Below are positions 7,684-29,567 of a stretch of DNA of 32,931 nucleotides, piece after piece (the first letter of the stretch is position 1; every line of letters begins with the position of its first letter). Source of the stretch: Candidatus Uhrbacteria bacterium (GTDB lineage: Bacteria > Patescibacteriota > Patescibacteriia > UBA9934); the NCBI GenBank assembly GCA_943357745.1, contig CALRGN010000005.1, positions 1 through 32,931 of the forward strand, in the 5' to 3' direction. The position numbers and the translations under genes are program-made. Below the pieces are notes generated by a model, which saw only the letters and a list, made by a program, of their open reading frames with translations, was not told the DNA's origin and did no database searches.

Positions 7684-7780
7684 ATTACCCCAAGTTTAAA
7701 TGAAGTTCCGAGATTTGTCTATGATTATAATCTGATTTGCATTTCTTTAGAGATAGCAGTAATCTTAAAGTGGAGCAAAA

Positions 7781-8764
7781 ATGACCAAAACTCAAGGCTA
7801 CCCCGCTTGGTGTTTGTCCCCCAGAGACCGTGTGAATGTTGATCTGATCCGATTGATCAGATCCAGCAAAGCGTCAGATCCTACGGCCAATCATGACATT
7901 GAAACTTTTTTATTGTTCAATCGCGGATTGATCAATAAAGCCGTCTCTCAATTTGCTTGGCCTCGTAACGAATCTGACCGAGAAGATTTAATCCAGGATG
8001 CCCAGTTGATTATGCTGGAGATGCTTCCTAGGTATGATGAGGAAAGAGGCGCCGTTTCCACCTTTTTCTTTTTATGGTTAAGAGCTAAACTTCCTAAAAC
8101 TGACAGCAATCGCCTGCGTTTTGGGATCTCTTTGCCAAGAAATCTGGCTGAAAAAAGAAGCGCAGTTGAATGGGTGGCGAAAGAAATATATCTCCGCACC
8201 GGTAACTACCCCAATCGGATTGAACTGGCACAGTCTCTCTTCCAGCGCGGTTTTGACGGAACACCGGCAAGCATCGCTAAATTACTGGAAGACTTACAGC
8301 TCGTTCACATCCATCCGGTCAGCATTCTGCCGGAAAATAATTCCGAGAACGGTCGTTCAGATCACTGGGAATTGGAGATCAATACCAACCACCTCGGCGA
8401 GAATTGGTCTGACCCAGTGTATTCTGGAGATCAAGTAGCCAACCACCAGCGGTACTTGGAATTACTGCAACAGTTGAATGATTATCGGCCGGATATGAGG
8501 AACAGCAGAACAATGAGTTTACTCATTGCTCGCTTCCGGAGCAATCCGCCTCGGTCGCTGTTGATCAAGTCTAATGTTGAACTGGCTAAAGAGCTTGGTA
8601 TCACCAGAGAAGCGATCCGGCAGAACCTCGCTAATCTTGTGAAACGGCTTCAACCAACACTAGATATAGCCGAGTTGTCCCGATTGGCCCGCTTGGAATA
8701 TTACCGGCTCAATGATCAATTGGGCGTACCAGTTCTTGATAGTCATCGTCGTCCCGACCAGTGA
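7781..8764 (+). CDS. Divergent RNA polymerase sigma-70 family factor
   Basis: Region 2-like EDLIQDAQLIMLEMLPRYDEERGAVSTFFFLWLRAKL; region 3-like RTGNYPNRIELAQSLF; region 4 HTH-like NVELAKELGITREAIRQNLANLVKRL. Confidence 0.82.
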   Translation: MTKTQGYPAWCLSPRDRVNVDLIRLIRSSKASDPTANHDIETFLLFNRGLINKAVSQFAWPRNESDREDLIQDAQLIMLEMLPRYDEERGAVSTFFFLWLRAKLPKTDSNRLRFGISLPRNLAEKRSAVEWVAKEIYLRTGNYPNRIELAQSLFQRGFDGTPASIAKLLEDLQLVHIHPVSILPENNSENGRSDHWELEINTNHLGENWSDPVYSGDQVANHQRYLELLQQLNDYRPDMRNSRTMSLLIARFRSNPPRSLLIKSNVELAKELGITREAIRQNLANLVKRLQPTLDIAELSRLARLEYYRLNDQLGVPVLDSHRRPDQ

Positions 8765-8765
8765 T

Positions 8766-8791
8766 CCCCCACTAGCTCTGCTAGGTGGGGG
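8766..8791 (+). terminator. GC-rich hairpin after the sigma-like gene
   Basis: cccccactagc tct gctaggtggggg (one bulge) immediately after the stop codon; no strong U-tract. Confidence 0.55.
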
Positions 8792-8811
8792 AATTGTTAT
8801 TTCACCACAAT

Positions 8812-8843
8812 AAAAAATCCCCATCTTTAGATGAGGATTTTTT
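8812..8843. terminator. Bidirectional intrinsic terminator
   Basis: aaaaaatccccatc-ttta-gatgaggatttttt, inverted repeat with A/T tracts on both sides, between the sigma-like gene and the convergent tRNA. Confidence 0.8.
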
Positions 8844-8919
8844 GGTTGCAGGGGTAGGATTTGAACCTACGACCTCCGGGTTATGAGCCCGGCGAGCTGC
8901 CTGGCTGCTCTACCCTGCG
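8843..8919 (-). tRNA. Initiator tRNA-fMet (CAT)
   Basis: Minus strand CGCAGGG...CCGGGCTCATAACCCGG...GGTTCAAATCC...CCCTGCAACCA; C1-A72 mismatch and GGG/CCC anticodon stem mark an initiator; CCA encoded. Confidence 0.94.
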
Positions 8920-9018
8920 AAAATTCAAGGCGACATTATGTTAACATGGAAGAAGTTAACTAGCAAATCAAGTTCTCACCTATGCCAAAAGTATTTTGGT
9001 AAAATATTAAAAAACAAA

Positions 9019-9075
9019 CCCCGTGCTGAGACGATTAGCCCTCCCAGTAGAGGGGGCTGGTCGTCTTGCACGGGG
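9019..9075 (-). terminator. Large terminator-like hairpin downstream of the alpha-CTD-like gene
   Basis: ccccgtgc..agacga..agccctc-loop-gagggggct..tcgtct..gcacgggg; on the minus strand followed by tttgttttttaatatttt. Confidence 0.8.
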
Positions 9076-9116
9076 CAAGAGAGTGACAAGTGCGCCGTGG
9101 TGAGCGGCGCGCGCGT

Positions 9117-10274
9117 CTATGTGTCCTTGGTGGTCGTATCAAAGTCCGCCTCGGTCATCCCGAGACGCAGCTCGAAAAACGACAGCATAGTCTTGACATC
9201 GTTCAAGGAATCGCGTCCAAAGTTCCTGATGGTGAGCAAATCGCGTTCCGTTTTGAAGACGAGCTGGTCAACGGTCTTAATACCCGCGGAATCCAAGCAG
9301 GTTTCCGTTCTCACCCTGAGTTCGCATGCATAGATACTGCGGCTGAGGACTTCGATGTCAAAAAGAGTCTTCCCCGCCCCGATACTAGGATGCGAGATCT
9401 CTTCCCGCACCTGGTGATCGCGCCTCATCTGCATCGTCTCGATCTCGTTCACCTCGCGAGCGATTGCGGCGATCTCGATTTCCCAGAGCTCACCGTGCCA
9501 CTTGGGAGGCGACCAGTTGCGAGGCAGAAGAGCACCGGCCCACAGACGCGAGCCGACCTCATGAAGAATGGCCTTGATCCTCTCGAAGTCACCCGTTGAG
9601 CGCATGCCTTCGGGGCAGTGTTGGAGACGACCGCACTTGAAGACTTCGCCGACGTAGTGGATGTCGTCCTGGTGCAAGCGACGGGCGAGCCCGCGGTAGG
9701 CACACTGCTCGTGGGGCGAGCGCAGTCGACGACCCATGTTCGGGATCTCCACCTCCCAATCCGGCGCCGCCGGCGTGGGATGACGCTCAAGGATGAGCGT
9801 GTTGATCTCGGCCAAGAAAGTCGGATCGCTCCAGTACGACGGCTGCCACCCCAACCCGATCGGGTCGATGTGGGAATGGAGACCGAATCGGTCTGCCAGC
9901 ACCTTCATCATCCTCCGTTCACTGGTCTCGCGGCCATGAGCTCCCCGGGGATTAAAGTACACGTAGTAGAGCTCGCCCACGTAGCGGATGCGCCGATAGG
10001 CAAGGTAGGACCGATCTTTGCGGGAGAAGGGTACATCACACACCTCAAGATCGAATACCGCCATGACGTCCTTGACCGGCGAGCTCTTGGATGCCTGAAT
10101 GAAAGCGGCGAATTTTCCCTCCTTGAAGGCCTGCATGACCTCGAGGAGCACCGTCACGTCGCTCAAGGAGCGTTCGTTGGTGAGAATGTGCCCCATTGCC
10201 GAACCCGTGAGGGCGGAGAGACGCTTCAATGCCTCGAGCTTCTGACGATCGTTCATGCCAGTTTCCGTGGACAT
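9117..10274 (-). CDS. Protein with C-terminal RNA polymerase alpha-CTD-like domain, probably with two further degenerate copies
   Basis: C-terminus FDIEVLSRSIYACELRVRTETCLDSAGIKTVDQLVFKTERDLLTIRNFGRDSLNDVKTMLSFFELRLGM matches the alpha-CTD pattern; internal IRYVGEL and IHYVGEV segments align to the same unit. Confidence 0.8.
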   Translation of the reverse strand: MSTETGMNDRQKLEALKRLSALTGSAMGHILTNERSLSDVTVLLEVMQAFKEGKFAAFIQASKSSPVKDVMAVFDLEVCDVPFSRKDRSYLAYRRIRYVGELYYVYFNPRGAHGRETSERRMMKVLADRFGLHSHIDPIGLGWQPSYWSDPTFLAEINTLILERHPTPAAPDWEVEIPNMGRRLRSPHEQCAYRGLARRLHQDDIHYVGEVFKCGRLQHCPEGMRSTGDFERIKAILHEVGSRLWAGALLPRNWSPPKWHGELWEIEIAAIAREVNEIETMQMRRDHQVREEISHPSIGAGKTLFDIEVLSRSIYACELRVRTETCLDSAGIKTVDQLVFKTERDLLTIRNFGRDSLNDVKTMLSFFELRLGMTEADFDTTTKDT

Positions 10275-10335
10275 GATTCACCTCCCTATTGGATTGTTGA
10301 ACAGTTCAAATCACCCCACCTTGTGGTGAGGGATG

Positions 10336-10364
10336 ATACTACCTCTTTTAGCTCATTTTGTCAA
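10336..10364 (-). promoter_or_regulatory. Sigma-70-type promoter of the alpha-CTD-like gene
   Basis: Minus strand TTGACA - 17 nt - TAGTAT, then a short leader with AGGTGA SD before ATG at 10274. Confidence 0.82.
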
Positions 10365-10565
10365 TCTCCTGGCTCACATGCCAATTCAAAGCAGTAATGA
10401 TCCCCCGTTTTAATAATTGGCCAAGCAAACCACTCAACTATCAAACTCCAAATCAGGTGTTAAAAAAGGAATTACTGGTTTGAAATGGAATGTAAGTGAT
10501 CGCCTTGACGCCTTGATGCAATCCAAGCTACTCTACCCCCTTATTTTTCTTCTCCCCCCACCCGC

Positions 10566-13256: not shown

Positions 13257-15122
13257 ATGAAAACATCGAAATTGGATGGAGATTCCACGAACCAACAAGA
13301 AGCCCTTCTTGCGTTGCTGAGACAACACGCCCCCGAGGTCTTTAGTGAAAACAAGATCGACGTAAAGCAACTCCGCGCCACTTTGGGCGAGGAAGTTTTA
13401 GCTGATGCAGAGCGTTATGGTTTGAACTGGGCTGGCAAGATGGATTGTTTCCGAACAATTCAGGAGACCACAACGAACACCCTCAAGCCTGTCCGTGATG
13501 AGTCGGTAAACTTCGACAGTACCGAGAATCTTTTTATCGAAGGCGATAACCTAGAAGTTTTGAGGGTTCTTCAGAAGAGCTACTACGGCAAGGTAAAAAT
13601 GATTTACATCGACCCTCCCTACAACACGGGAAACGATTTTATTTACAACGACAAGTTTTCCCGAAACAAGCGGGAGTATCTCGAAGAGGTTGGAGCGATT
13701 GATAAAGAAGGCAACGTCGTGAATGCCGGGTTATACACGCAGAACACGAAAGATAGCGGACACTTCCATTCGGATTGGCTCAACATGATGTATCCGCGTT
13801 TGTTTTTGGCGAAGAATCTCCTTCGACAGGATGGAGTGATGTTTATTAGTATAGATGATAATGAAGTATACAATTTACGAACAGTCGTGAATGAGATTTT
13901 TGGAGAGGAGAATGTAGAAGAAATGATTTGGAGAAAAAGCGGAATTGGTCGTGATGGAAAAATGAAAAACACGACCACATTCAGAAATGATCATGAGTAT
14001 GTATTAGTTTGCCATAAATCTATTAAAGATTTGAACAAATCTTTTGAGATACCTAACTGGCAGAATCAATACGGAAATCCAGATTCTGATCCAAGAGGAA
14101 GTTATAAGGCCGGAAGCATTTCAAGAAAAGATGAGGCATCAAATCCACTGCATAAATTTTACTACACAGTAATATCTCCTGTCGGAAAAGAATTTACAAG
14201 GCAATTTGAGATTAGTAAGGATGATTTCCTTAGACTCGATGAGGATAAGAGAATTTATTGGGGTAAGAATAAAGATGCTGTACCAGCAGTCAAAATTTTT
14301 ACTGAAGAAAAACGAGAAGTCACCACGTCCTCGTTAATTGAGGATAAACTTTGCACCACAACAATTGGATCCAAGGAGCTCGACGAACTACTTAATATCG
14401 AAGGTTTAGGCATAACGGCTAGACCAAAGCCAGTTACGTTGATAAAAAAACTTACTCAAATTGGCGATGATAAAGATGGTATCGTGATAGATTTTTTCGC
14501 TGGTTCCGGAACGACTGCTCATGCCGTGATGCAACTCAACGCTGAGGACGGCGGCCACAGAAAATGGATCTGTATTCAGCTGCCAGAAAAATGTAAGCCA
14601 GAGACTGAAGCCGCAAAGGCTGGATTTGTTACGATTGCGGATATCGCAAAAGAACGTATTCGACGTGCGGGCAAAAAGATTAAGGAAGAAAATCCAGAAA
14701 AAACTTTTGATGTAGGATTTAAGCTATTCAAGATTGATGAGAGCAATTTCAAGATTTGGAATACCCACGTGACGAGCGTCGAACAATTGGAGCAACAGAT
14801 GATTGAGATGTTCGATAACGTCCAACCCGGTGCCACGAAAGAGGCGATGATGTACGAGTTGATTCTGAAGAGTGGCAAAGAGCTAAATGTTGCAATCGAA
14901 GAAAAGACTGCCGGGGGAGAAAAGTATTTTAGAGTAAATGACGGCTCTTTGGTGATTTGTCTTGCTGACAAGTTGAGCAAGGAGTTGTTTACAGGAATCC
15001 TCACCGAGAAACCAAAGAAGATTATCGTCCTCGACAAGTCTTTTGGGAATGACGATCAACTCAAGACGAATCTACTCCTCCAAGCTGAAGGTGCGGGAGT
15101 TGATGAGGTACGCGTGATTTAA
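13257..15122 (+). CDS. Type III restriction-modification DNA adenine methyltransferase (Mod)
   Basis: MIYIDPPYNTGNDFIYNDKF (DPPY) and DFFAGSGTTAHAVMQLN (FxGxG) in beta-class order; adjacent res gene. Confidence 0.93.
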   Translation: MKTSKLDGDSTNQQEALLALLRQHAPEVFSENKIDVKQLRATLGEEVLADAERYGLNWAGKMDCFRTIQETTTNTLKPVRDESVNFDSTENLFIEGDNLEVLRVLQKSYYGKVKMIYIDPPYNTGNDFIYNDKFSRNKREYLEEVGAIDKEGNVVNAGLYTQNTKDSGHFHSDWLNMMYPRLFLAKNLLRQDGVMFISIDDNEVYNLRTVVNEIFGEENVEEMIWRKSGIGRDGKMKNTTTFRNDHEYVLVCHKSIKDLNKSFEIPNWQNQYGNPDSDPRGSYKAGSISRKDEASNPLHKFYYTVISPVGKEFTRQFEISKDDFLRLDEDKRIYWGKNKDAVPAVKIFTEEKREVTTSSLIEDKLCTTTIGSKELDELLNIEGLGITARPKPVTLIKKLTQIGDDKDGIVIDFFAGSGTTAHAVMQLNAEDGGHRKWICIQLPEKCKPETEAAKAGFVTIADIAKERIRRAGKKIKEENPEKTFDVGFKLFKIDESNFKIWNTHVTSVEQLEQQMIEMFDNVQPGATKEAMMYELILKSGKELNVAIEEKTAGGEKYFRVNDGSLVICLADKLSKELFTGILTEKPKKIIVLDKSFGNDDQLKTNLLLQAEGAGVDEVRVI

Positions 15123-15124
15123 GT

Positions 15125-15931
15125 ATGGCTATCCCAGAAGAAATTACAAGAACGATTAATAAATCCGACAGTGGATTTTTAATCGAGACTTCGAGCTTCT
15201 TGGAGTCTCAGGGCTGGGTTGTCACGATCAGTCCGTACTATCTTGATTCTTTTACGGGAAAGAGCCGAGAGATTGATTTGCTTGCTACGAAGACTGTCGA
15301 TGTGCTCTATGGTAGACGAATCGGTTCCGCGACTTACAATCTTATTATCGAATGTAAGGATATAAGGAATGGTGATCCAATGAATAACAATGCTGTTTTT
15401 TGGTTCAAGGATTCTGCTAAGTATGAAAAAGAGCTATCAGATTTTGTACAAAGGCATTTTTCAGACGATCCAAAAAATTGGGATCAGTTGAAAAACCTCC
15501 ATTATTTTGAAAACCCCGACACCGCCTTCTTGTTCGAGAGCGCTGACAATGGTGGTAAAGACCGTGAGAACGGTTCTGTTTTTAAGGCGCTTACTCAGGC
15601 GCTTCACTCGTTGATTTATTTTCGAGCAGAAGGTTATGGAAGCGTAAATACTACGGGCTACAACGTTCGGCACTACTTGCCTGTTGTTGTTTATCGAGAT
15701 ATTTCAAACGCTGTATATAAAGTGAACGACGATCGAATCGAGCAGATTAAAGAGAATTTTCTACTCGCAATGAATTACTCTTACAGTCACCCTAAGAAAG
15801 GAACGGCCATATCAGAATTCTTCCTTGTCGATGTGGTGAGACATGAGCTGCTCCAAGCGTTTTTAGACAAAATTTCGAGCGACCTGAAGAATTTACAGTC
15901 GTATATTCAGGATAAGGACGATCAAGTATGA
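15125..15931 (+). CDS. PD-(D/E)XK nuclease-like protein between mod and res
   Basis: SREIDLLATK...YNLIIECKDIRN fits a D-x(n)-ExK nuclease core; starts 3 nt after mod and overlaps res by ATGA. Confidence 0.6.
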   Translation: MAIPEEITRTINKSDSGFLIETSSFLESQGWVVTISPYYLDSFTGKSREIDLLATKTVDVLYGRRIGSATYNLIIECKDIRNGDPMNNNAVFWFKDSAKYEKELSDFVQRHFSDDPKNWDQLKNLHYFENPDTAFLFESADNGGKDRENGSVFKALTQALHSLIYFRAEGYGSVNTTGYNVRHYLPVVVYRDISNAVYKVNDDRIEQIKENFLLAMNYSYSHPKKGTAISEFFLVDVVRHELLQAFLDKISSDLKNLQSYIQDKDDQV

Positions 15932-18597
15932 AATTAAAATTCGAAGCAAATCAGCAGTACCAAATCGATGCCGTAAAATCGGTGGTCGATATTTTTGAGG
16001 GCCAGCCGTTGGAGAGTGGTGATTTTGAGATGATGGTTGCTATACCGGCGGACAGACTTCAAATTGGAAGTGAGATTTTGGTTGGTAACAATCTCGTGTT
16101 GGAGCAGGAAACAATCCTGAAAAACATTCAAACCATCCAGGAACAAAACAAACTCCCCCTCAGCGATAGCGAGTTCAAGGATGGAATGAACTTCTCTACT
16201 GAAATGGAAACGGGTACGGGAAAGACATACGTCTATTTGCGAACCATACACGAACTCAATAAGAAGTACGGGTTCAAGAAGTTCGTAATTGTCGTGCCGA
16301 GTATCGCGATCAAGGAGGGTGTGATGAAAAACCTTGAAGTAACGAAGGAACATTTCGCGTTGCTGTTTGATAATCCGAAGATGGATTTTTACATTTACGA
16401 TTCCAAGAAAAGGGGTCAACTTCGGAATTTTGGTACAACGGATACGCTCCAAGTGCTCGTGATAAACATCGACTCGTTCACCAAGAAAGAAAGCAACATC
16501 ATTTACCAGGATTCAGATGATGGCATTCCGGTTCGCTACATTCAGGGTGTTTGCCCGGTGGTGATTGTTGATGAACCGCAGAACATGGAAACAGACGTGC
16601 GCAAGGTGGCAATCGCGAATTTAAATCCGCTTTGTACACTTCGGTATTCCGCGACGCATAAATATCCGTATCATCTGCTCTACAAACTCGATCCAGTACA
16701 GGCATATGACTTGGGTTTGGTGAAAAAGATTGAAGTCGACTCTGTTTTCTCCGAGGATGCGTACAACGACGCATATATTCGCGTTCTTGAAATCAAAAGC
16801 AAGAAGGCTAATATTACGGCGACCATCGAGATTGATAAAAGCGATGATTATGGCCTCCAGCGCAAGGAGGTGGTGATGAAGCCTGGAGACGACCTGTTTG
16901 ACCTCTCAGGGGAACGTGAGGCTTACAAGGACGGATTCGTGCTGGAATCCATCAGCGTTACGGACCAAACTGTGGGCTTCTCCAACGGAAATACGTTTGC
17001 GTGCGGTCAGAAGGATGAAAAGCTACAGGACGACATCATGAAATATCAGATTAAGAAAACGGTTGAAAATCATTTCGAGAAAGAAAAAAAGCTGAAAGAT
17101 AAGGGCGTGAAGGTGCTCTCCCTGTTTTTTATTGACCGCGTATCAAATTACCGAGAATACGTTGAGGCTGGCTGGGGTAAAGGAAAATTCGCACAATGGT
17201 TTGAAGAGGCATACAAAGAAATGCAGAAGAAGCCGCAGTACCAAGGCGTGCTTGAGCAAGATTGTGGCGACGTTCATGACGGTTATTTTGCACAGGATAA
17301 GAAGTCTGGCTCCTGGAAGGATTCGAGCGATGCAAAAGGAGGAGAAGGTGGAAAAACACAAGACGATGAACGGGCGTACGAGTTAATCATGAAGAACAAG
17401 GAGAAATTGTTAGACGTAAATACGCCACTACGTTTCATCTTCAGTCACTCCGCGCTTCGTGAAGGATGGGACAACCCGAACGTCTTCCAGATTTGTACGC
17501 TCAGTGAAACACAATCCGTCATGAAGAAGCGCCAAGAAATCGGACGCGGTCTTCGCTTGCCAGTGAATCAGGATGGCGAACGAATTTACGATTCGAACAT
17601 CAATGTGCTGACCGTCATTGCCAATGAAAGCTACGAACAGTTTGCGAAAGCCCTCCAGACAGAAATTGAGGAGGACTGCGGTGTTTCGTTTTCTGGTCGT
17701 ATCAAGAGCAAAGAAAAACGTCGGATAGTGAAGCTGAAGAAGGGATATGAACTCGATGAGAACTTTAAAGATTTGTGGAGCCGAATCAAACAGCGCACGC
17801 AGTATCACGTTGAGTACAGTACAAGAGACCTTATCGAAAATGCCTGGCGTGCGTGTTTGAATATCAACGTCTCGAAGCCAAGAATCAGCAACGTTCGCGT
17901 GCGCCTGAACATCAACGAGAAAGGTGTTAATACGGAAATTCGTTCAGTAAGTAGTCAGACGATCAAACAAGAGATTGGACTGGAGGCCATTCCTGACGCG
18001 ATTAACAACATTCAGCGGAAAACTCGGCTGACCAAACCGACGATATTTAAAATTCTCAAGGAATCGGATCATTTGAAAGATATCCTGGTTAATCCTCAGC
18101 AAGTCGTTGACGAGGTGACCATGAAAATCAACGAGACGCTCACTCGTATGGCAGTAGACGGCATCAAGTACGAAAAGATCGCTGGTGGCTTCTGGGAGAT
18201 GCAGCGATTCCAGAATGAAGAGCTGGAAGAGTATCTTGACCGTCTTATCAAGGTTCAGAATCAGCAGAGAACGCTTTACGACCACGTTATTACGGATTCT
18301 GCGGTGGAAGCGACCTTCGCCAAAGACTTGGAATCACGCGAGGATGTGAAGTTTTACTTCAAGCTCCCTCGATGGTTCAAGATCGAAACCCCACTTGGTG
18401 GCTACAATCCGGACTGGGCAATTGTTTTTGAGAATGACAAACGGGTGTACTTCGTTGCGGAAACCAAAAAAGAAGGCGAGATTCGAGAGAGTGAGGAGAT
18501 GAAAATCACCTGTGGTCGTGCACACTTCAAAGTGCTGGACGGTGTGCTATTTGAGCGAGTTGAGAGGCTGGAGGAGATTCAGATAAGTGGCTCTTGA
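15928..18597 (+). CDS. Type III restriction enzyme Res subunit (helicase-nuclease)
   Basis: Walker A FSTEMETGTGKTYVYLRTI, VIVDEPQNME, SHSALREGWDNPNVFQICTL, RQEIGRGLRLPV, C-terminal YNPDWAIVFENDKRVYFVAETK (PD-ExK). Confidence 0.94.
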   Translation: MKLKFEANQQYQIDAVKSVVDIFEGQPLESGDFEMMVAIPADRLQIGSEILVGNNLVLEQETILKNIQTIQEQNKLPLSDSEFKDGMNFSTEMETGTGKTYVYLRTIHELNKKYGFKKFVIVVPSIAIKEGVMKNLEVTKEHFALLFDNPKMDFYIYDSKKRGQLRNFGTTDTLQVLVINIDSFTKKESNIIYQDSDDGIPVRYIQGVCPVVIVDEPQNMETDVRKVAIANLNPLCTLRYSATHKYPYHLLYKLDPVQAYDLGLVKKIEVDSVFSEDAYNDAYIRVLEIKSKKANITATIEIDKSDDYGLQRKEVVMKPGDDLFDLSGEREAYKDGFVLESISVTDQTVGFSNGNTFACGQKDEKLQDDIMKYQIKKTVENHFEKEKKLKDKGVKVLSLFFIDRVSNYREYVEAGWGKGKFAQWFEEAYKEMQKKPQYQGVLEQDCGDVHDGYFAQDKKSGSWKDSSDAKGGEGGKTQDDERAYELIMKNKEKLLDVNTPLRFIFSHSALREGWDNPNVFQICTLSETQSVMKKRQEIGRGLRLPVNQDGERIYDSNINVLTVIANESYEQFAKALQTEIEEDCGVSFSGRIKSKEKRRIVKLKKGYELDENFKDLWSRIKQRTQYHVEYSTRDLIENAWRACLNINVSKPRISNVRVRLNINEKGVNTEIRSVSSQTIKQEIGLEAIPDAINNIQRKTRLTKPTIFKILKESDHLKDILVNPQQVVDEVTMKINETLTRMAVDGIKYEKIAGGFWEMQRFQNEELEEYLDRLIKVQNQQRTLYDHVITDSAVEATFAKDLESREDVKFYFKLPRWFKIETPLGGYNPDWAIVFENDKRVYFVAETKKEGEIRESEEMKITCGRAHFKVLDGVLFERVERLEEIQISGS

Positions 18598-29006: not shown

Positions 29007-29485
29007 GCGGTAAGGGGGATGGTCGCTCTAGTCTTTGACTGGAGAGGAAAGTCCGAACACCCGTTTAGGCGTAAGTCTAGATTGAGAGCCAAGTTGCTAA
29101 CAGCAACCAAGCATAATTCTTGACGGATTTATCCGGCGAGAAAAAGCTAGGGAAAGTCCGGTTTTTGCGGAAGTGGAAACTGGTTTGTCTTCGTCAGAAA
29201 TGATGAGGCACAAAGCAACAGAGACAAACTACCGGTCTAAAGCGCAAGCCATGACCGGTAAAAGTGAAACGTGAGGCGGTGTGGAGCGCATGATTTATCA
29301 GTCGCCCGGCTGCGCCTCTCCCCTTGTTGGTGACAATAAGGGGTGGCAAACCCTTGGTGGTGCAAGAGCAAACAAAGGTAGCTCGCATTGAGGTAACAAG
29401 CGATTGTTATCCCAGAGAGATGGCCTCGCTTCTTTTAGGGGTTTCCCCTGACTGGAGTACAGAATTCGGCTTATACCTTTACCGC
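29007..29485 (+). ncRNA. rnpB: RNase P RNA
   Basis: GAGAGGAAAGTCCGAACAC near the 5' end, GGCAAACCC..GGTGCAAGAGCAAA, ACAGAATTCGGCTTATAC near the 3' end; P1 pairing gcggtaagg/cctttaccgc. Confidence 0.9.
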
Positions 29486-29567
29486 ATCTCTTCTGTTCCG
29501 ACCAGTGTTCCGAACGGCGTTCCGATCGGTGTGCCGACCGGTGCTCAATAGTCGGATTAGAAGAGAT
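29486..29567. repeat. Inverted repeat enclosing four imperfect 12-bp tandem repeats
   Basis: atctcttct (29486-29494) / agaagagat (29559-29567); inside gttccgaccagt gttccgaacggc gttccgatcggt gtgccgaccggt. Confidence 0.8.

Follow-up and report, generated by a model that had tools for sequence, protein, structure and literature searches.

A detached protein with apparently three alpha-CTD-like units in a Candidatus Uhrbacteria genome whose RNA polymerase alpha subunit lacks the domain

Introduction

The roles of the DNA-contact positions R265, N268, C269, G296, K298, S299 and E302 in the C-terminal domain of the RNA polymerase (RNAP) alpha subunit (alpha-CTD, PF03118) are well established in E. 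coli. In the same organism, alpha-CTD residues D259 and E261 lie opposite sigma70 R603 and nearby basic residues in region 4.2. The alpha-CTD is called ubiquitous across all Bacteria in PMC12531629. In the reduced genomes of Hodgkinia, Tremblaya and Parcubacteria, RpoA is cut to its N-terminal domain (NTD), as in the genome considered here, and the loss in Parcubacteria is mentioned in a single sentence (PMC8321222). Loss of the RpoA alpha-CTD in Parcubacteria is therefore not new. The relevant part of that paper differs from the present case in that it describes neither detached Parcubacteria alpha-CTDs nor the sigma patch. In literature whose coverage stopped short of most subscription journals and of bioRxiv preprints, no description of detached alpha-CTDs in Patescibacteria was found.

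The window, meaning the whole stretch of DNA that was analysed, comprises 32,931 nucleotides of a Patescibacteria genome. Its nearest named relatives are Candidatus Uhrbacteria, within NCBI's Parcubacteria group, and together they belong to what we take to be the class ABY1/Patescibacteriia. The window encodes P0001, for which the original prediction proposed a stand-alone protein with apparently three alpha-CTD-like units that could act as a transcription regulator or as an RNAP decoy by binding UP-element-like DNA or sigma.

The polymerase and housekeeping sigma of the class

Within its genome (94% complete), P0001 is the sole protein with a PF03118 match, even at E-values up to 10. The RpoA of this genome, encoded on contig 2, has 250 residues and ends after the NTD. 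In a survey of 96 genomes, made up of the window's genome and its relatives, rpoA was matched in 91 and PF03118 on none of the rpoA products. The residues that follow the RpoA NTD number 4-47 in 31 proteins of the class versus 78-99 in 25 other Patescibacteria, and in a sample of the phylum an alpha-CTD above the cut-off is found in 239 of 287 genomes, mostly on frames of about 300-340 amino acids.

The housekeeping sigma factors of the class (L181-L210) were compared with those of other Patescibacteria (L211-L240). In the class, R596 is replaced by E in 30/30 sequences, R599 by Q in 27/30 and R603 by L or I in 27/30, whereas in the other Patescibacteria position 599 is R or K in 30/30 and position 603 is R in 12/30. 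The basic patch is retained in proteins of the class that fuse sigma region 4 to an alpha-CTD, where the sigma parts of five read ALRKLRHPSR or similar. Loss of the alpha-CTD and loss of the facing sigma patch thus go together in the class, and the fusion proteins carry both. The suggestion that P0001 is a decoy of its own RNAP fares poorly in this setting, because that RNAP has no alpha-CTD to mimic and the sigma of the class lacks the basic patch that would contact one.

The P0001 locus

P0001 lies between valS and a DHH-family gene. This gap spans 2.9 kb here, and in three genomes of the same genus it measures about 0.1, 0.14 and 0.73 kb. The features of the locus are as follows.

7684..10565, segment from valS to the DHH-family gene, holding the sigma-like ORF, tRNA-Met and P0001
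7781..8764 (+), divergent sigma-70-like ORF of 327 amino acids, Sigma70_r2 E=6.7e-7
8843..8919 (-), tRNA-Met (CAT), between the sigma-like ORF and P0001
9117..10274 (-), P0001, alpha-CTD array protein of 385 amino acids, ATG start
10275..10364 (-), P0001 leader with Shine-Dalgarno GGAGG and promoter-like TTGACA/TAGTAT, the latter by consensus match only

The P0001 frame is open over its full length, with 385 codons intact. Its GC content is 58.3% and its GC3 74%, against 45-48% GC in the flanking genes. The GGAGG lies 6 nt 5' of the ATG, and the promoter-like TTGACA-17-TAGTAT, again by consensus match only, is located at 10364-10336(-). Searches of P0001 with PADLOC and PHROG gave no defence-system match and no significant phage family, respectively, and a DNA repeat search gave nothing informative. 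P0001 has no match to the RpoA N-terminal assembly domain (PF01193/PF01000), nor to sigma70 region 4 (PF04545) at E-values up to 10.

The sigma-like ORF has a GC content of 47% and a GC3 of 49%, the native composition of the flanks. It differs in this from P0001, so a joint arrival of the two genes is not required. Its one close relative in the 96 genomes is a 39% identical paralogue on contig 28 (L166, 8589-9638(+)), which has xseA on one side and an xseB-like frame on the other, with no alpha-CTD protein there. A functional link between P0001 and the sigma-like ORF was considered and rejected as unproven, given this paralogue and the homologue loci of P0001, which have no such partner. Elsewhere in the window, ORFs at 13257-18597(+) resemble, by eye, an adenine methyltransferase (DPPY motif) and restriction-system partner genes, and 29007-29489(+) encodes an ordinary RNase P RNA of class A (Rfam RF00010, 127 bits).

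Anatomy of P0001

Four segments can be distinguished within the protein.

10092..10169 (-), residues 36-61, conserved N-terminal helical segment, from homologue alignment and AF2 helices 37-51 and 55-61 at low pLDDT
9840..10064 (-), residues 71-145, degenerate alpha-CTD-like unit 1, from hhalign; AF2 pLDDT 48-77 with alpha-CTD-like helix order
9522..9710 (-), residues 189-251, degenerate alpha-CTD-like unit 2, from hhalign; AF2 pLDDT <50
9183..9353 (-), residues 308-364, canonical C-terminal alpha-CTD, from PF03118, residue table and AF2/Foldseek

P0001 ends in a genuine RNAP alpha-CTD. Residues 308-364 match PF03118 with E=7.7e-16 and 58 bits (gathering cut-off 23.8), PDB alpha-CTD chains match the C-terminus with E-values down to 1.3e-10, and AF2 models the unit at a pLDDT of about 80 with top Foldseek matches that are all alpha-CTD. 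Aligned to E. coli, the unit retains R265, C269, G296, S299 and E261 and carries the changes N268T, K298D, E302D and D259A, so that 4/7 of the DNA-contact set is kept. R265 and the G and S had been noted from the sequence at the outset, and these are the residues that P0001 shares with RNAP alpha-CTDs. P0001 differs from RpoA in that it has no alpha-NTD, carries two worn copies in addition, has N268, K298 and E302 changed, and occurs in a host whose RpoA lacks the domain. Elsewhere in the class, detached alpha-CTDs mostly have the full contact set intact. The substitutions N268T, K298D and E302D could weaken DNA binding by the last unit.

Upstream of this unit, a Pfam search finds no alpha-CTD above threshold, and the two further copies were assessed by profile comparison. 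Profiles of each unit were built from five sequences (P0001, its homologues L004, L006 and L026, and the weak relative L170) and compared by hhalign with one built from 60 non-redundant alpha-CTDs. Over 72 columns, unit 1 aligns with a probability of 89.8 and a score of 35.8, and unit 2 over 58 columns with a probability of 77.5 and a score of 31.5, both in alpha-CTD register. Column shuffles, 300 for each unit, scored at best 14.9 for unit 1 and 15.0 for unit 2, reversed alignments scored 12.4, and the highest score among 109 segments from other window proteins was 19.7. A profile made from the upstream part alone, searched against 381 class genomes, hit a genuine alpha-CTD protein in each of two other genomes (E=2.8e-4 and 0.005). 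Because the hhalign scores exceed all controls and the reverse search reaches alpha-CTD proteins, the profiles support three alpha-CTD-like units in P0001, one canonical and two worn. The canonical DNA-contact set is absent from units 1 and 2 in the profile alignment.

Structure prediction agrees in part. An AF2 model of P0001 from four sequences is of low confidence, with a mean pLDDT of 50, and in a model of a 515-amino-acid homologue the middle units are likewise poorly resolved. Foldseek matches that homologue model best to structures of the E. coli alpha-CTD, either together with sigma region 4 on UP/-35 DNA or together with CAP. Of the three folds expected from AlphaFold, the C-terminal one was recovered and unit 1 showed the helix order, but unit 2, with its pLDDT below 50, did not emerge, and its predicted fold therefore comes from sequence. 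As to anatomy, the original prediction otherwise holds: the profiles bear out a stand-alone protein of three units, the two upstream segments score as degenerate copies far above their shuffles, their positions were approximate but correct, and the likeness to alpha-CTD extends beyond the C-terminal part. That only the C-terminal unit is an alpha-CTD, the rest resembling it through a chance HhH-like composition, is very improbable: Pfam detects one unit, AF2 leaves unit 2 without a clear fold and each profile holds five sequences only, but the real scores stand far above every shuffle and decoy, the register is common to 58-72 columns and the reverse search finds alpha-CTD proteins.

Relatives of P0001 and other detached alpha-CTDs

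The search of related genomes that had been proposed for P0001 did return homologues. Across 381 class genomes, the upstream part occurs only in three Uhrbacteria metagenome-assembled genomes and one weak relative. P0001 is absent from all four same-genus genomes searched, and neither a single-protein scan of genome contigs nor an N-terminal-profile scan of viral contigs gave a close relative. The homologue loci share no conserved neighbour gene. One homologue (L006/L130) retains the worn units and has no canonical alpha-CTD, which suggests that the core function may lie in the worn part.

Detached alpha-CTDs as such are more widespread, with at least one in 28 of the 96 genomes. Among the detached alpha-CTD proteins scanned, eight have Sigma70_r4, one is FtsK and two have tandem alpha-CTDs. 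The eight (L005, L008, L009, L010, L011, L014, L015, L019) combine sigma70 region 4 with a C-terminal alpha-CTD, no region 2 being detected, and an extra N-terminal HTH-like segment is often present in this family. Like P0001, these fusions and a viral counterpart (L246) place a detached C-terminal alpha-CTD on an accessory protein; unlike them, P0001 has no sigma region 4 and carries degenerate alpha-CTD repeats instead. The recurrence of sigma region 4 on alpha-CTD proteins of the class suggests a transcription role for the group. The tandem proteins L012 and L023 resemble P0001 in being stand-alone with more than one alpha-CTD unit, but both of their units are recognised by Pfam and no homology to the N-terminal part of P0001 was found. 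In the FtsK protein (L029, 1187-2914(-), on contig 19 of genome G044), an FtsK/SpoIIIE motor comprising alpha and gamma domains precedes a C-terminal alpha-CTD, which is 64% identical to that of Sinorhizobium RpoA. Detached alpha-CTD genes are often GC-richer than their flanks, e.g. 63% versus 44%, with L009, L015, L004, L017 and L027 among the examples.

Viral contigs from IMG/VR hold 17 alpha-CTD loci (L241-L257), including HTH_3-alpha-CTD and HTH_17-sigma4-alpha-CTD proteins. The viral proteins are either stand-alone or HTH-fused, and PHROG has no family for four of the six that were tested. Phage and plasmid records gave only alpha-CTD matches; those on plasmids are mostly annotated RpoA copies, and the Tsukamurella plasmid match lies within a ribosomal-protein operon.

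Origin of the detached domains

In a tree built from 67 alpha-CTDs, all but one of the 33 accessory domains group with the RpoA of E. coli and Azospirillum (98/94), and they stand apart from the RpoA of Patescibacteria and of Gram-positive bacteria. A clade of accessory domains with Patescibacteria RpoA is rejected by the AU test (p=0.0029), and a clade of accessory domains only is not (p=0.196). The alignment has 78 columns and eight RpoA rows from outside Patescibacteria, of which two are Pseudomonadota; the E. coli row was entered by hand. The detached alpha-CTDs of the class are thus apparently foreign and of Pseudomonadota type, although a Pseudomonadota donor is to be taken as a lead rather than as proof, owing to the short alignment and the long branches, that of P0001 included. 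Descent from the organism's own lost alpha-CTD was considered and is disfavoured by the tree and the AU test, within the 78 columns and eight outside rows.

Possible functions of P0001

The reading that we favour, which we put at slightly under an even chance, sees P0001 as an accessory protein, gained by horizontal transfer, that binds promoter-upstream DNA; its anatomy is well supported and its function inferred. P0001 would act in trans as a detached alpha-CTD, with its C-terminal unit holding the minor groove of DNA upstream of promoters; the changed contact residues of this unit would give it an altered preference. Lacking the DNA-contact residues, the two worn units may serve as protein-contact or spacing modules. 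P0001 would then be a regulator that adjusts transcription and not a competitor of its own RNAP, and a role as DNA-binding regulator is plausible.

It is unlikely that the units instead serve as generic helix-hairpin-helix grips on DNA or protein in an adaptor outside transcription, for example in repair or segregation. The FtsK of genome G044 shows that the domain is used outside promoters too, Foldseek with the homologue model also gives weak matches to the HhH parts of Y-family polymerases and of RAD51 paralogues, and the alpha-CTD of one relative has an HHH_5 match. However, most accessory alpha-CTD proteins in which a second domain is recognisable have sigma region 4, which points to promoters.

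P0001 could also be a recent acquisition in decay that has kept no function. Its foreign composition, its absence from four same-genus genomes and its altered contact residues fit such a history, but the frame is intact over 385 codons with a good Shine-Dalgarno and a promoter-like site, and a reduced genome of 650 kb would be expected to purge such a gene, which makes decay improbable. Slightly more doubtful still is action on the RNAP of another bacterium, as a hijacker or decoy in a host cell or as a relic of a phage era. Pseudomonadota RpoA groups with the accessory alpha-CTDs, one of these is close to the Sinorhizobium domain and stand-alone alpha-CTDs occur on viral contigs; against this, P0001 has by eye no secretion signal, it retains R265 and E261 but has N268, K298 and D259 changed, and the sigma4 and FtsK fusions suggest intracellular use.

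Implications for promoter recognition in the class

All sampled members of the class lack an RpoA alpha-CTD, and the domain persists solely on accessory proteins of apparently foreign origin. A broader proposal, tentative and rather unlikely, is that upstream-promoter recognition was stripped from the core RNAP of the class (RpoA without its CTD, sigmaA without the facing patch) and rebuilt from laterally acquired, detached alpha-CTDs of Pseudomonadota type. Fused to sigma region 4 or arrayed as in P0001, these would serve as interchangeable, trans-acting UP-element factors. If the detached domains do read upstream elements in trans, promoter recognition could be detached from the polymerase and provided by independent proteins that are themselves transferable.
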